From positions 1-32,834 of the forward strand of contig JACIWU010000035.1 of NCBI GenBank assembly GCA_014360805.1: a DNA stretch of 32,834 bases, read 5' to 3'. The position numbers and the translations under genes are program-made. Numbering within the stretch: position 1 is the stretch's first letter; each line of letters begins with the position of its first letter. The stretch comes from Chloroflexota bacterium. GTDB lineage: Bacteria > Chloroflexota > Anaerolineae > DTLA01. Positions 23,431-27,265 of the stretch are shown here, piece after piece. The notes under the pieces were generated by a model, which was given only the letters and a program-made list of their open reading frames with translations, was not told where the DNA came from and did not search any database.

Positions 23431-24357
23431 ATGATCGCGTTTGTGCTGAGCGGCGGGGGGAACCGCGGGGCGCTGGAGGTGGGGGCGCTGCAGGCGCTGT
23501 TCGGCCACGGCATCCAGCCCGATATGCTGGTGGGCACGTCGGCGGGGGCCATGAATGCGGCGTTCATCGCTGCCGATCCCAGCCCGGTGGGCGCGCTGAC
23601 GCTGGGTGGGCTGTGGAAGTCGCTGCGCCGCTCCGACGTGTTCCCTGGCAATCCTGTAACGATGGCGTGGCGCGTACTCACGAAGCAGGACGGCTTGATG
23701 TCCAGCGCCCGCCTGCGCGACCTGGTCATTCGGAACCTGCCGCCTGGGGTTATGCGGTTCGCCGACCTGCGCGTGCGGCTGTACACGACGGCCGCCGACC
23801 TCAACACCGCCACGCTCTACCTGTTCGGCGACGACCTTTCGGCGCTGATCGTGGACGCGGTCATGGCCAGCGCCTCGCTGCCCGTTACGTTTCCGCCTTA
23901 CATGTACCATGGCGCACAACTGGTGGATGGCGGCATCGTCGCCAACGTGCCCATAGAGATCGCAATGGCCAAGGGCGCGACCGAAATCTACGCGATAGAC
24001 CTGGGGTATTCGGGCGAGACGGTGCCCGAGGTGCACGGCCTTGTTGACATAATCCAGCGCATGCTGACCACACTCATCTACCAGCAGTTGCTGGACGACC
24101 TGGAAGAGGCGGCGGGGAATCCTGCCGTGGCGCTGCACCACATCCGCATCCCCGCGTTTCACGGCATCTCCATGTGGGATTTCGGCCACGCGGAAGAGAT
24201 GATCCGCGCCGGCAAGGAGATCACCGAGGCGTATCTGGCGAACCCCCAGCCGCTTACCGTCGCCCTGGCGGAATATGCGACCTCGGTGCGGGAATCGGCG
24301 CGGGCGTTGCCTGGCGCGACGGTCTATCGCCCGCGCCGCCCGAGACGGCGGATTTGA
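23431..24357 (+). CDS. Patatin-like phospholipase (bacterial NTE/RssA-like)
   Basis: This 308-residue acyl hydrolase has the Ser-Asp dyad of patatins. The oxyanion loop is SGGGNRG (7-13). The nucleophile Ser37 is in GTSAG, and Asp166 is in VDGGIVANVP. It would cleave acyl esters of phospholipids. No signal peptide is visible. GGAGG 7 bases upstream favours ATG 23431 over the TTG six bases earlier. The stop codon lies within the -35 box of the next promoter. Confidence 0.92.
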   Translation: MIAFVLSGGGNRGALEVGALQALFGHGIQPDMLVGTSAGAMNAAFIAADPSPVGALTLGGLWKSLRRSDVFPGNPVTMAWRVLTKQDGLMSSARLRDLVIRNLPPGVMRFADLRVRLYTTAADLNTATLYLFGDDLSALIVDAVMASASLPVTFPPYMYHGAQLVDGGIVANVPIEIAMAKGATEIYAIDLGYSGETVPEVHGLVDIIQRMLTTLIYQQLLDDLEEAAGNPAVALHHIRIPAFHGISMWDFGHAEEMIRAGKEITEAYLANPQPLTVALAEYATSVRESARALPGATVYRPRRPRRRI

Positions 24358-24382
24358 CATCCGCGCCGGTCGCGGGTATACT
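24354..24382 (+). promoter_or_regulatory. Strong sigma-70 promoter of the selenoprotein operon
   Basis: TTGACA (24354-24359), a 17-base spacer and TATACT (24377-24382) form a near-consensus promoter. It overlaps the patatin stop codon. The predicted start of transcription is about 24389, inside the palindrome described next. Confidence 0.8.
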
Positions 24383-24412
24383 CCATATACCCTATGAGGG
24401 TATGTGGAGTAT
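24378..24412. promoter_or_regulatory. Palindromic operator, CsoR/CstR-like
   Basis: The arms 24378-24392 and 24398-24412 are inverted copies with one mismatch around a TATGA centre. The core ATACCC-TATGA-GGGTAT resembles operators of the CsoR/CstR family of copper and persulfide sensors (family knowledge). It covers the -10 box, the predicted start site and the start codon region. A bound repressor would therefore block transcription. Because transcription probably begins inside it, the full hairpin is not in the mRNA, which favours a DNA operator over an RNA element. No csoR gene is in the window. Confidence 0.65.
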
Positions 24413-24836
24413 GGCCAGAATCGCTCGAGTTGTGAAGGAGAACATAGGGCTTGTCATCCTGGCGGTCATCCTTGCCGCCTCGTATGCCTATCTGCGCACT
24501 CCCGCCGATACGGTGGCCACGGAACAGGAGTTCGCGGCGCTTTTCTCCGCGGGCAAGCCCGTGCTGGTGGAGTTGTATTCCAATACCTGAAGCGCGTGCT
24601 TGCTGTCCAAGCCCGCCGTTGACGGGTTTGAGCGTTCGCACGAGGGGCAAGTTGCCGTGGTGCGGCTGAGCGTGCGCTCGGCGCTGGGCAATGCCCTGGC
24701 GTACCAGTTCCAGGTGCGCGCGGTGCCCACGTTCTTGCTGTTCGCGCCACACGGCGAACTGGTGGCGAAGCACGTGGGAGTCGCGACCGCTGGCCGCCTG
24801 ACGAGCCTGTTGGACGAAGGGATGGAGGAGCGTTAG
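24411..24836 (+). CDS. Selenocysteine-containing membrane-anchored thioredoxin (UxxC)
   Basis: The gene reads through an in-frame UGA at 24588-24590 to give 141 residues. A membrane anchor lies at about 11-28 (NIGLVILAVILAASYAYL). A thioredoxin domain facing the outside follows: GKPVLVELYSNT, then Sec60-Ser-Ala-Cys63 where thioredoxins have CxxC, then KPAVDGFE, and the cis-proline motif RAVPTFLLF. Homology on both sides of the UGA is in the same frame and uninterrupted, so this is not a broken gene. A SECIS-like hairpin starts 17 bases after the UGA. ATG 24411 has GAGGG 10 bases upstream. ATG 24402 is an alternative. As annotated by ordinary rules it would be split at the UGA. It is the first gene of a four-gene unit. 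Confidence 0.85.
24608..24630 (+). promoter_or_regulatory. Candidate bacterial SECIS element 1
   Basis: CAAGCCCG (24608-24615) pairs with CGGGUUUG (24623-24630) to give an 8-bp stem including one G-U pair. The 7-base loop CCGUUGA starts 26 bases after the UGA. An inner C-G pair would leave a GUU tip. Bacterial SECIS elements lie in the coding region with the loop about 16-37 bases after UGA and G/U in the loop. A competing smaller hairpin (GCUUG/CAAGC, 24598-24612) also exists. Confidence 0.65.
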
Positions 24837-24839
24837 TCT

Positions 24840-25049
24840 ATGCCAATCTACGAGTATCGTTGCCCACACTGTGGCAAGGAGTTTGAGAAACTGGTTCCCA
24901 TGAACACGGACCCGCGAAGTGTGGAGTGCCCCCATTGCGGGCAGAAGGGCGTGGAGAAAAAGGTGTCGCTGTTCGGCATGGGGGGCAATGCCCTAGGCGG
25001 GTTTGCCGTCTCGCAGGGGTCCTCCTGCGGCACAGGCGGCAGCACTTGA
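24840..25049 (+). CDS. FmdB-family zinc ribbon protein
   Basis: This 69-residue protein opens with PIYEYRCPHCGKEFE, and a second CPHCGQKG is at about 31-38. It is the small regulatory FmdB/zinc-ribbon family, whose role is not settled. Family members are thought to bind zinc through the two CxxC pairs. The C-terminus is Gly/Ser-rich with one more cysteine (SSCGTGG). The start follows the thioredoxin stop by 3 bases, so the two are cotranscribed and probably coupled. Its place among three UGA-containing genes suggests a role with them, which is inference. Confidence 0.9.
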   Translation: MPIYEYRCPHCGKEFEKLVPMNTDPRSVECPHCGQKGVEKKVSLFGMGGNALGGFAVSQGSSCGTGGST

Positions 25050-25061
25050 GGCATCTAGCCG

Positions 25062-25080
25062 ACGGGCCGTGGGCCTGTCT
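25062..25080 (+). other. Intercistronic hairpin
   Basis: GACGGGCC (25062-25069) pairs with GGCCUGUC (25073-25080) around a GUG loop, with one G-U pair. Only two T residues follow, so it is a weak terminator at best. It may reduce read-through into, or stabilise, the second half of the operon. Confidence 0.45.
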
Positions 25081-25108
25081 TTGAAACGAACTTCAGAAAG
25101 GATGCGCC

Positions 25109-25462
25109 ATGCAGACAAACGAAACAGAGCAGGTAGTGGTATCGGTTTTCGGCAACGACCTGATGGAGAGTTGCTTCAGCGGAGGCTGAGGACCTCACTG
25201 GTCTTCGGAGGAGACCACGAAGATCGTCGCCGATTATTTACGGGAAGACTTCGGCGACAGGGTGAAGGTGGAGTACTACGAACTGTCGGATCCGGAAATG
25301 CGGGCGAAGTATGCCGACGTGGTGAAGGCCGTTGAGGAGCACGGGCTGGCATATCCGCTCACGGCCATCAACGGTGTCTTCCGGTTCGCGGGTGGGGTGA
25401 GTTACTACGCCATCCTGCGGGCGGTGCAGGAGGCGCTGGGCATTCCGGCGGGTGAATCATGA
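25109..25462 (+). CDS. Selenocysteine-containing YuzD-like (DUF1462) thioredoxin-fold protein
   Basis: The frame runs from ATG 25109 (AAAGGA at 25097-25102, 6-base spacer) through an in-frame UGA at 25187-25189 to a stop at 25460, giving 117 residues. The N-terminal strand VVVSVFG, Cys22 and Sec27 (CFSGGU) come first. A helix with SSEET and the strand KVEYYELSD follow, then the YPLTAINGVFRFAGG motif with its cis-proline. This matches the layout of YuzD-like thioredoxin-fold proteins. Sec27 lies at the second cysteine of their CxxC, four residues before SSxET. Without read-through the product would be a 26-residue peptide. A SECIS-like hairpin follows at the right distance. The partner thiol may be Cys22, in a C-x4-U arrangement. 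The function is presumably thiol or sulfur redox. Confidence 0.8.
25199..25217 (+). promoter_or_regulatory. Candidate bacterial SECIS element 2
   Basis: UGGUCU (25199-25204) pairs perfectly with AGACCA (25212-25217). Inner U-G and C-G pairs extend the stem to 8 bp with a GGA tip at 25207-25209. The loop begins 16-18 bases after the UGA. Confidence 0.68.
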
Positions 25463-25623
25463 GTCTTGGGGATTTGGCGTTGCTGGGGCTATTCGCCCTG
25501 TTCGCGGTGCTGTGGCTTTGGATTGGCCCCAAGGCGGGCGTGGGCGGCTGAGCGGTGCAGAGGCCGGCCGTGCCGTCGGCATGCGACGAACATGAAGATA
25601 CGGATGAGCACCAGGATTCCTAG
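25459..25623 (+). CDS. Putative small membrane selenoprotein (Gly-Gly-Sec)
   Basis: The ATG overlaps the preceding stop (ATGA). The first 30 codons encode one membrane span (LALLGLFALFAVLWLWIG, about 6-23) and then PKAGVGG. An in-frame UGA lies at 25549-25551. Reading it as Sec31 gives a 54-residue protein with a hydrophilic tail containing Cys42 and many Asp/Glu/His. The frame closes with UAG at 25621, just before the operon terminator. A SECIS-like hairpin with G as the second loop base lies 17 bases after the UGA. I do not recognise the family. If the UGA is a true stop, the product is a 30-residue membrane peptide. The case rests on the hairpin, the two neighbouring UGA genes and the fit to the terminator. 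Confidence 0.5.
25557..25584 (+). promoter_or_regulatory. Candidate bacterial SECIS element 3
   Basis: GCCGGC (25563-25568) pairs with GUCGGC (25575-25580) around the loop CGUGCC. An outer GCA/UGC helix (25557-25559 with 25582-25584) is separated by a small internal loop. The loop starts 18 bases after the UGA. High GC makes chance hairpins more likely here. Confidence 0.55.
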
Positions 25624-25651
25624 ACACGGCGCAGTGTCGCCGCGGAGTGAG

Positions 25652-25678
25652 AAGGCCCGCACCCCAGCGGGCCTTTTT
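25652..25678 (+). terminator. Intrinsic terminator of the selenoprotein operon
   Basis: AAGGCCCGC (25652-25660) pairs with GCGGGCCTT (25667-25675) around a six-base loop and runs into TTTTT. It lies 28 bases after the UAG that ends the extended third UGA gene. Confidence 0.9.
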
Positions 25679-25725
25679 CGTTGCCGGTTTTCGCACATGT
25701 TGCGTTATGTTCGCTGATAGAAAAG

Positions 25726-25753
25726 TTGACAAATCCAGTTGATAGGCTATAAT
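25726..25753 (+). promoter_or_regulatory. Consensus sigma-70 promoter of the MerR gene
   Basis: A perfect TTGACA (25726-25731) and a perfect TATAAT (25748-25753) are separated by 16 bases. The in-frame ATG at 25752 lies inside the -10 box and so cannot be the start, which favours ATG 25803. Confidence 0.88.
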
Positions 25754-25802
25754 GGTTGTAAAGTGTGGTGCCACCATGTCCGCTCGGCGAGGTGAGAAGA
25801 AA

Positions 25803-26231
25803 ATGCGCAGCGAATCCACCCCTCTGTACACCATTGGTACGGCCGCCGACCTCTTGCAGGTCCATCCGCGCACCCTGCGGCTCTACGAGCAGTTCGGCCT
25901 GATCCGCCCCGCCCGCAAGAACAATCGGCGCCTGTATTCGGACAATGACCTGAAGTGGGTCCAGTGCATCCGCTATCTCATCCACAAGAAGGGCCTCAAT
26001 CAGGAAGGGCTTCGCCGCCTGCTGGGGCTGATTCCGTGCTGGGAGTTGAAGGGGTGCTCGGATGCGGACCGCGCCGCCTGCACCGCCTACGAAGACCGCT
26101 CCACGCCCTGCTGGGAGATCGCCAGTAGCACGTGCGCGAAGGCCGGCAAGTGCTACGAGTGCGAGACGTACCTGGCGGCGCGGCACAGGCTCCTCAACCC
26201 GAACGAGTTGGCGGAGATTGACGCCGTATAG
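25803..26231 (+). CDS. MerR-family regulator with cysteine-rich C-terminus
   Basis: This 142-residue DNA-binding protein has a MerR winged helix at about 8-75 (YTIGTAADLLQVHPRTLRLYEQFGLIRP, then NNRRLYSDNDL). The C-terminal third has seven cysteines at 79, 85, 93, 103, 111, 117 and 120 (PCWELKGC, PCWE, CAKAGKCYEC), a pattern suited to an iron-sulfur cluster, zinc or a thiol redox switch. AGGTGAG ends 6 bases before ATG 25803. It follows the selenoprotein operon but has its own strong promoter. The 16-base spacer is not the long spacer of classic MerR-activated promoters. It could regulate itself or the neighbouring operon. The ligand is unknown. Confidence 0.88.
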   Translation: MRSESTPLYTIGTAADLLQVHPRTLRLYEQFGLIRPARKNNRRLYSDNDLKWVQCIRYLIHKKGLNQEGLRRLLGLIPCWELKGCSDADRAACTAYEDRSTPCWEIASSTCAKAGKCYECETYLAARHRLLNPNELAEIDAV

Positions 26232-26284: not shown

Positions 26285-27265
26285 GTGAAACAACACACGG
26301 ACGCGCCGGTTGATTGGTTGTTGCAGGGTCCTCCTTGGGTACAGTATAGAACCCGCGTGGACCTGCTGAATCAACCCGAGAATGACCCACAGGTGAGTGC
26401 AGCCCGTCGGACTATGGTCGCGCATCCGCTTGTTCAGTCTTTGCTGACCGAACTGGCCGAGTGGCCGGGTGCCCCGCTGAAACGTCATAATGATGCCAGC
26501 CACCTGCTGCACAAACTGGCCTTTGTTGCTGATCTTGGGTTCAGGGCCGATGACCCCGGTATTGCGCAGGTCGTCAATCGGATTTTCAGCCACCAATCGC
26601 AGGATGGCCCCTTTCAAGTGCTGATGAACATCCCGACTCACTTTGGCGGCACAGGCAAAGACCAGTGGCTCTGGATGCTCTGCGATGCCCCGATCGTGCT
26701 GTATGCCTTGGTGAAATTCGGCCTGGGTGAGGCCCCCCGGGTCCAAGCAGCGATACAGACATTGGTGGACCTGGTGCGCGATAATGGGTGGCCCTGTGCA
26801 GCGGCACCTGAGTTGGGTAAGTTTCGCGGGCCTGGCCCCAAGAATGCCCCGTGTCCCTATGCGAATCTGGTGATGCTGAAAGCCTTGGCCGTAGCGCCGG
26901 ACTGGCGGGAGAGCGCAGCCTGCCACACTGGCGCAGAGACATTATTGCAACTCTGGGAAGACCGCACGTTACGCAAACCGTATTTGTTTGCAATGGGCAC
27001 GGACTTCGGCAAACTCAAGGCCCCCTTGATCTGGTATGATGTTCTACATGTGCTAGACGTACTATCGCACTTTCCATGGTTGCAGCACGATGAACGTCTC
27101 CGAGAGATCGCGCACCATGTGAAGGCCAAAGCCGATGAGCAGGGCCGTTTCACCGCGGAGTCCGTATGGACAGCATGGAGAGCGTGGGAGTTTGGACAGA
27201 AGCGTACCCCCTCGTGGTGGTTGACCTTGTTGGCGCACCGCGCGCTGACACGCATGGCTATGTAG
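26285..27265 (+). CDS. Hypothetical protein, alpha/alpha-toroid (prenyltransferase/squalene-oxidase repeat) type
   Basis: This 326-residue soluble protein is rich in Trp, His and helix-forming repeats (SHQSQDGPFQV, DNGWPCAAAPE, DEQGRFTAESVW). Each D-x-x-G-x-(W/F) turn is typical of the terpenoid-cyclase/prenyltransferase toroid fold. No catalytic DxDD of a cyclase is visible, so the function is open. The GTG start has only a weak upstream site. Base composition is clearly lower in GC and codon choice less biased than in the flanking genes, suggesting acquisition by transfer. The 81 bases after it show no gene. Confidence 0.7.
   Translation: MKQHTDAPVDWLLQGPPWVQYRTRVDLLNQPENDPQVSAARRTMVAHPLVQSLLTELAEWPGAPLKRHNDASHLLHKLAFVADLGFRADDPGIAQVVNRIFSHQSQDGPFQVLMNIPTHFGGTGKDQWLWMLCDAPIVLYALVKFGLGEAPRVQAAIQTLVDLVRDNGWPCAAAPELGKFRGPGPKNAPCPYANLVMLKALAVAPDWRESAACHTGAETLLQLWEDRTLRKPYLFAMGTDFGKLKAPLIWYDVLHVLDVLSHFPWLQHDERLREIAHHVKAKADEQGRFTAESVWTAWRAWEFGQKRTPSWWLTLLAHRALTRMAM

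Follow-up and report, generated by a model that had tools for sequence, protein, structure and literature searches.

We analysed a window of 32,834 nucleotides, positions 1 to 32,834 of contig JACIWU010000035.1 (assembly GCA_014360805.1), from an uncultured Chloroflexota (Anaerolineae-like) bacterium with a four-selenoprotein operon. Four genes, all in one direction on the forward strand, lie between a sigma70-type promoter (TTGACA-17-TATACT, 24354..24382, forward) that matches the consensus at 11 of 12 positions and an intrinsic terminator-like hairpin with a T run (about 25652..25678, forward; AAGGCCCGC-ACCCCA-GCGGGCCTT-TTT). In both sister genomes the promoter reads TTGACA-18-TATAAT. A palindrome, ATACCC-TATGA-GGGTAT (24387..24403), overlaps the transcription start region and resembles CsoR-family operators. 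The rule of our terminator scan gave no call at 25652-25678 despite the visible hairpin and T run, a miss probably due to two T being drawn into the stem; sequence comparison found the stem-loop-T-run form kept in two sister genomes. A first-pass annotation of the DNA had proposed a near-consensus promoter, a palindromic operator and an intrinsic terminator, and all three are found at these positions.

Each of the four genes contains an in-frame UGA, which we read as selenocysteine (Sec, U). The first encodes a membrane-anchored thioredoxin (Trx; 24411..24836, with an alternative in-frame ATG at 24402; Pfam Thioredoxin, E=1.6e-10), in which the UGA at 24588..24590 places Sec60 in the motif U-S-A-C. 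It is followed by an FmdB-family zinc ribbon (24840..25058; TIGR02605, E=1.5e-17), by a YuzD/DUF1462-like protein assigned to the thioredoxin fold by sequence and structure comparison (25109..25462; UGA at 25187..25189 within GUGP, giving C22-x4-U27-G-P), and by a small protein with a single transmembrane segment and a Gly-rich tail (25459..25623; UGA at 25549..25551, giving Sec31 in GVGG-U-AV). The three in-frame UGAs reported earlier, at 24588, 25187 and 25549, are all real, but the operon has a fourth. The zinc ribbon had been called a normal gene ending at the UGA at 25047..25049, which is in fact followed in frame by GGC ATC and the true stop TAG (25056-25058). Sec therefore stands two codons ahead of the stop in a C-terminal tail (GGST-U-GI*; C63...U70-G-I*). 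The protein has the CxxC...CxxC ribbon and passed the family cut-offs of both TIGR02605 (63.4 bits versus 31.3) and PF09723 (63.8 versus 34.4).

Every UGA is followed by a hairpin resembling the bacterial selenocysteine insertion sequence (SECIS). These lie on the forward strand at 24608..24630 for Trx (8 bp, loop CCGTTGA), 25061..25079 for FmdB, past its stop (8 bp, loop GTG), 25199..25217 for the YuzD-like gene (8 bp, loop GGA) and 25569..25583 for the membrane protein (CGTGCC-GTC-GGCATG), where a sister genome carries a compensatory change of U-A to C-G. The elements agree with the published bSECIS model of a hairpin 16-37 nt after the UGA with G in the first loop positions (PMC13188914). 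Under a rule demanding at least 6 bp, G in the loop start and a distance of 15-30 nt from the UGA, hairpins were present at 32 of 33 tested Sec sites compared with 13.7% of 1577 ordinary TGA-ended frames, which is more than chance would give. Two genuine TGA stops, those of a patatin gene beside the operon and of the YuzD-like gene inside it, had no hairpin. In the FmdB and membrane-protein elements, pairs counted by script on loop-anchored sequences showed stem pairs 2-6 formed in 13/13 sequences with 3-4 pair types each; the loop was G[U/G]N, and the elements lay mostly past the real stop. The hairpins were picked by a stem search and their pairing is partly by construction; this does not apply to the diversity of pair types, to loop consistency or to the comparison with background.

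The genome of the window (G000), which is 96% complete, encodes SelA (577 bits, cut-off 268), SelB (342.9 bits, cut-off 242), SelD (372.7 bits, cut-off 125; its own gene has one in-frame TGA) and a tRNA-Sec with anticodon UCA (69.9 bits). All four components that the first-pass annotation had proposed to look for are hence present, including SelB and tRNA-Sec, without which its proposal would have failed, and homologues of the operon's proteins read through the UGAs rather than ending at them. Cys in place of the UGA, a further expectation, was found among YuzD-like homologues; in Trx, FmdB and the membrane protein U is conserved and Cys was not directly seen. The stretches downstream of the UGA in Trx and the YuzD-like gene are translated: substitutions between sister genomes are biased by codon position (positions 1/2/3: 13/7/24 and 4/5/28, respectively). 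From these sequence features we consider it nearly certain that all four genes have their UGA translated as Sec via SelB and the SECIS hairpins.

Some observations weigh against this reading. Folding energies compared with synonymous shuffles were modest (mean z -1.3, 26% at p<=0.05), those of the Trx hairpins were not significant, and one YuzD-like site (L040) failed the hairpin rule. As folding energy alone is weak, the SECIS case rests on hairpin position, background rate and covariation. The tail of the membrane protein after its UGA showed little frame bias (7/5/10 at codon positions 1/2/3) and may for this reason be nearly free. Furthermore, selA had no match in one genome (G029) and only fragments in another (G401), both being drafts; selA separates Sec-type from Cys-type genomes poorly, many Cys-type genomes carrying it.

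Of 400 genomes of the phylum, 15 contained the YuzD-like protein, as did 39 of 396 genomes of the class. Its exact DNA pattern including the UGA occurs on 64 contigs from Chloroflexota and Actinomycetota (Coriobacteriia, Thermoleophilia), a scan that required the UGA and so counts copies without testing UGA conservation. In the protein alignment the Sec column holds U or Cys in 48 of 48 rows, with Cys forms such as CLISGCG, FCRACTP and CAEPCGV. Among known families YuzD/DUF1462 (SA0798-type, PDB 1xg8) comes closest: 1xg8 was the best PDB sequence match (E=8e-07) and the top Foldseek match to a predicted model (pLDDT 89.7) whose thioredoxin fold also resembles ArsD and thioredoxins. In contrast to that family, Sec occupies the conserved Cys site, and some members fall below the Pfam cut-off (PF07315: window protein 20.2 against a gathering cut-off of 25; a Coriobacteriia homologue, at 30.6, is above it). 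One relative (L025 222-542, G136) retains the UGA and SECIS but has a one-base deletion right after them, indicating recent decay or an assembly error. A second YuzD-like paralogue in another genome (L035/L039, G081) carries a Cys-rich form of the Sec motif, SCGUGSSCGPSCGSDC. Another 33 loci, all from Actinomycetota (for example L061 and L081), have a gene for a multiheme c-type cytochrome on the opposite strand, about 4.5 kb or less from the Sec YuzD-like gene.

Every FmdB gene found in the neighbourhood of a Sec-containing YuzD-like gene had a tail of the form U-G-[IFV] with a stop within a few codons. The tail UGA was in frame at the same position in all of the 30 best FmdB homologues from 249 genomes of the class, 29 of them with a hairpin; mostly U-G or U-S was followed by a hydrophobic residue. 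The ribbon Cys residues are intact, and eight sequences share Cys63 and U70 of the tail without exception. Sec in the FmdB tail thus appears widespread through the whole class, far past this operon (L152-L181). As C-terminal Sec-UGAs resemble ordinary stops, the annotation of many FmdB genes of the class is probably wrong by a few residues, and the residues lost may be those that matter most. The U of the Sec-containing Trx is common to seven distinct motif variants, and five lineages have the membrane protein with its Gly-rich tail and U, as in RGPKGGGNT-U-GL* or RKGGGGT-U-GR.

The operator recurs outside the operon. The genome holds three exact copies of ATACCC-N5-GGGTAT and none of the reversed control. 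One further copy, with a consensus promoter, precedes a ferredoxin-like gene and thioredoxin reductase (TrxR; L182 1501-2800, G000:C12), and the other, also with a consensus promoter, precedes a small coiled-coil-like gene (L183 1501-1791, G000:C24) that is kept together with the operator in both sister genomes (L197, L215). Judged by sequence, the operon shares its promoter architecture and CsoR-family-like operator with the ferredoxin-like and TrxR genes. The operator was present at 20 of 44 Sec loci compared with 0.012 expected; of 12 genomes searched for it, 11 had 1-4 copies each. It overlaps consensus promoters of Sec-Trx, Sec-FmdB, Sec-YuzD, TrxR and ferredoxin-PDO genes, including those of other lineages. 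On this distribution the palindrome marks a putative multi-operon regulon that includes TrxR. Recurrent partners in Chloroflexota are a Sec-Trx directly upstream of Sec-FmdB, TrxR and a PDO/AhpF-N-type glutaredoxin (Grx), the last being itself a UxxC selenoprotein in three loci (L036-L038). The conserved TrxR and Grx neighbours and the shared operator support the thiol-redox pathway proposed in the first-pass annotation; the gene set, for which that annotation knew of no described system, is not unique, as parts of it come up repeatedly in Chloroflexota.

Operators of the CsoR family have a pseudo-palindromic form with C/G tracts (PMC10318464), and here too a C/G-tract palindrome covers the promoter. 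CsoR-family genes are adjacent in several lineages: one is divergent, across the operator, from a TrxR-Trx(U)-YuzD(U)-FmdB(U) operon (L139), and in three genomes (G485, G463 and G520) one lies behind Sec-FmdB. The genome of the window has two CsoR-family genes, one of which keeps the CsoR ligand His. The other, on contig C126, scores above the PF02583 cut-off and has two Cys and a Tyr aligned to the ligand His; an operator copy with one mismatch lies at the start of the gene. Its best PDB match is 7mq1, deposited as CsoR, which we take to be pneumococcal CstR. The replaced metal-ligand His and the near-operator at its own start are what a CstR-like regulator would be expected to show, and this gene is the best regulator candidate. 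To our knowledge, no CsoR/CstR regulon with selenoproteins plus TrxR has been described.

Taken as a whole, we lean slightly towards a four-Sec operon repressed by a CsoR/CstR-type protein and encoding a TrxR-fed selenol relay that would reduce disulfides or persulfides. In such a relay the repressor would keep the operon off until its Cys residues became oxidised or persulfidated. NADPH-thioredoxin reductase would then pass electrons to four selenol carriers: the cytosolic, thioredoxin-fold YuzD-like protein with its CxxxxU motif, the zinc ribbon FmdB, which bears C...U on a flexible tail, the membrane miniprotein, with a Gly-rich, Sec-bearing tail that would be cytoplasmic by the positive-inside rule, and the membrane-anchored Sec-Trx, whose domain is probably outside by the same rule. 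Jointly they could reduce disulfides or persulfides at both faces of the membrane. The relay probably responds to reactive sulfur, and persulfide is suggested as a substrate by the type of regulator. A more specific version, in which a CstR-like persulfide-sensing regulon is widespread in Chloroflexota and the tail Sec of FmdB and the SELENOK/S-like miniprotein clear or relay reactive sulfur with TrxR, is put forward only tentatively. Much of this proposed regulon would be unannotated, since a Sec-UGA near the C-terminus gets called as a stop. Several points count against the relay: its topology and substrate are inferred, as is the pairing of the C126 repressor with the operator, the persulfide signal rests on resemblance to the CstR family, and at 17 of 44 Sec loci there is no operator even when one mismatch is allowed. 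Because the operator apparently ties selenoproteins, TrxR and a CsoR/CstR-type regulator into one regulon, the function is directly testable.

The selenoproteins might alternatively transfer sulfur or selenium, or take part in metal thiol chemistry (a persulfide relay, or Cu or As buffering), and not serve general disulfide reduction. The resemblance of the YuzD-like protein to ArsD would fit this, as would a P-type ATPase near L037 and the frequent control of copper or sulfur genes by CsoR-family operators. In ten Thermoleophilia-type loci (L049, L062, L068, L072, L079, L086, L093, L095, L105 and L108) the YuzD-like gene directly follows one for a ThiI/MnmA-like PP-loop sulfurtransferase, a neighbour hinting at sulfur transfer. 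However, TrxR, Trx and PDO are the most frequent identified neighbours in Chloroflexota, and the His ligand of CsoR is missing from the candidate repressor, a separate His-bearing CsoR being encoded in the genome; we regard this explanation as rather unlikely. Ordinary disulfide or peroxide defence, in which Sec only speeds a standard Trx system with no special substrate, would account for Sec-Trx, TrxR and Grx-like partners, which are standard (PMC13188914), but would leave unexplained the Sec on flexible zinc-ribbon and miniprotein tails and the CsoR-type operator, and seems improbable.

Explanations that dispense with Sec in some or all of the genes fare worse than the selenol relay. If only Trx and the YuzD-like protein contained Sec, the UGAs of FmdB and the membrane protein being ordinary stops with chance hairpins, the few codons after these UGAs and the several energies that are weak on their own would be expected. 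The U-G-[ILVF]-type tails of the 30 best FmdB homologues with their 29 hairpins, the covarying hairpins mostly past the following stop and the Gly-rich-U layout of the membrane protein in five lineages make this very improbable. A UGA in frame and the frameshift in relative L025 would also be compatible with pseudogenes, with errors in sequencing or with a code in which UGA stands for another amino acid. We reject these as having a negligible chance, as two sister genomes and dozens of distant homologues have the UGA too, there is third-position bias, and UGA serves as a normal, hairpin-free stop within the same operon (YuzD-like stop, 25460).

Two components are of known selenoprotein kinds, the UxxC Sec-Trx (PF00085) of the operon and the AhpF-N/PDO-like Grx of the neighbourhood, although this Trx differs from known ones in being membrane-anchored and paired with Sec-FmdB. 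An FmdB selenoprotein of the GOS metagenome belongs to the same zinc-ribbon family, TIGR02605, but has Sec in a CxxU/UxxU motif (PMC13188914), whereas the FmdB protein of this operon keeps every ribbon Cys and has its Sec in the C-terminal tail. The miniprotein has the layout of eukaryotic SELENOK/SELENOS, with a single transmembrane segment, a Gly-rich segment and Sec near the C-terminus (PMC8744743); it is bacterial, mostly about 30-35 amino acids long, uses a bacterial SECIS and is too short and low in complexity for a comparison of ancestry. The resemblance is likely convergent. The three-selenoprotein Tso operon (TsoA, LULAxC; TsoB, rhodanese/DsbD-like; TsoC, NEPxGxxU) and the SAO operon, an ABC/organometallic set, both from Haft and co-workers, are likewise compact and combine several selenoprotein genes with redox-type motifs, but by the account of a review they comprise different families (PMC13188914). 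Membership in either was rejected, as none of the four proteins matched the NCBIfam Tso/Sao models. In a 2026 review table covering 119 prokaryotic selenoprotein (sub)families, Sec-FmdB appears only as UxxU, and neither DUF1462 nor such a miniprotein is included (PMC13188914); the June 2026 release of NCBIfam offers no model specific to the Sec YuzD-like protein, the tail-Sec FmdB or the miniprotein. Three Sec placements thus go beyond the 2026 catalogue, in a YuzD/DUF1462-like protein, at the C-terminus of FmdB and in a tiny membrane protein with a Gly-rich tail, and the operon, with the operator that it shares with TrxR, suggests that a redox or sulfur-stress system based on selenium has been overlooked.

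Farther downstream, a 326-amino-acid protein (26285-27262) had no Pfam or NCBIfam match. Between it and the operon, a Cys-rich MerR-family regulator gene (25752..26231, forward) lies next to the latter and has its own promoter with a perfect 12/12 match (25726-25753). A gene 57% identical to it sits after Sec-FmdB in another genome (G409, L216), and the regulator is possibly associated with the operon.

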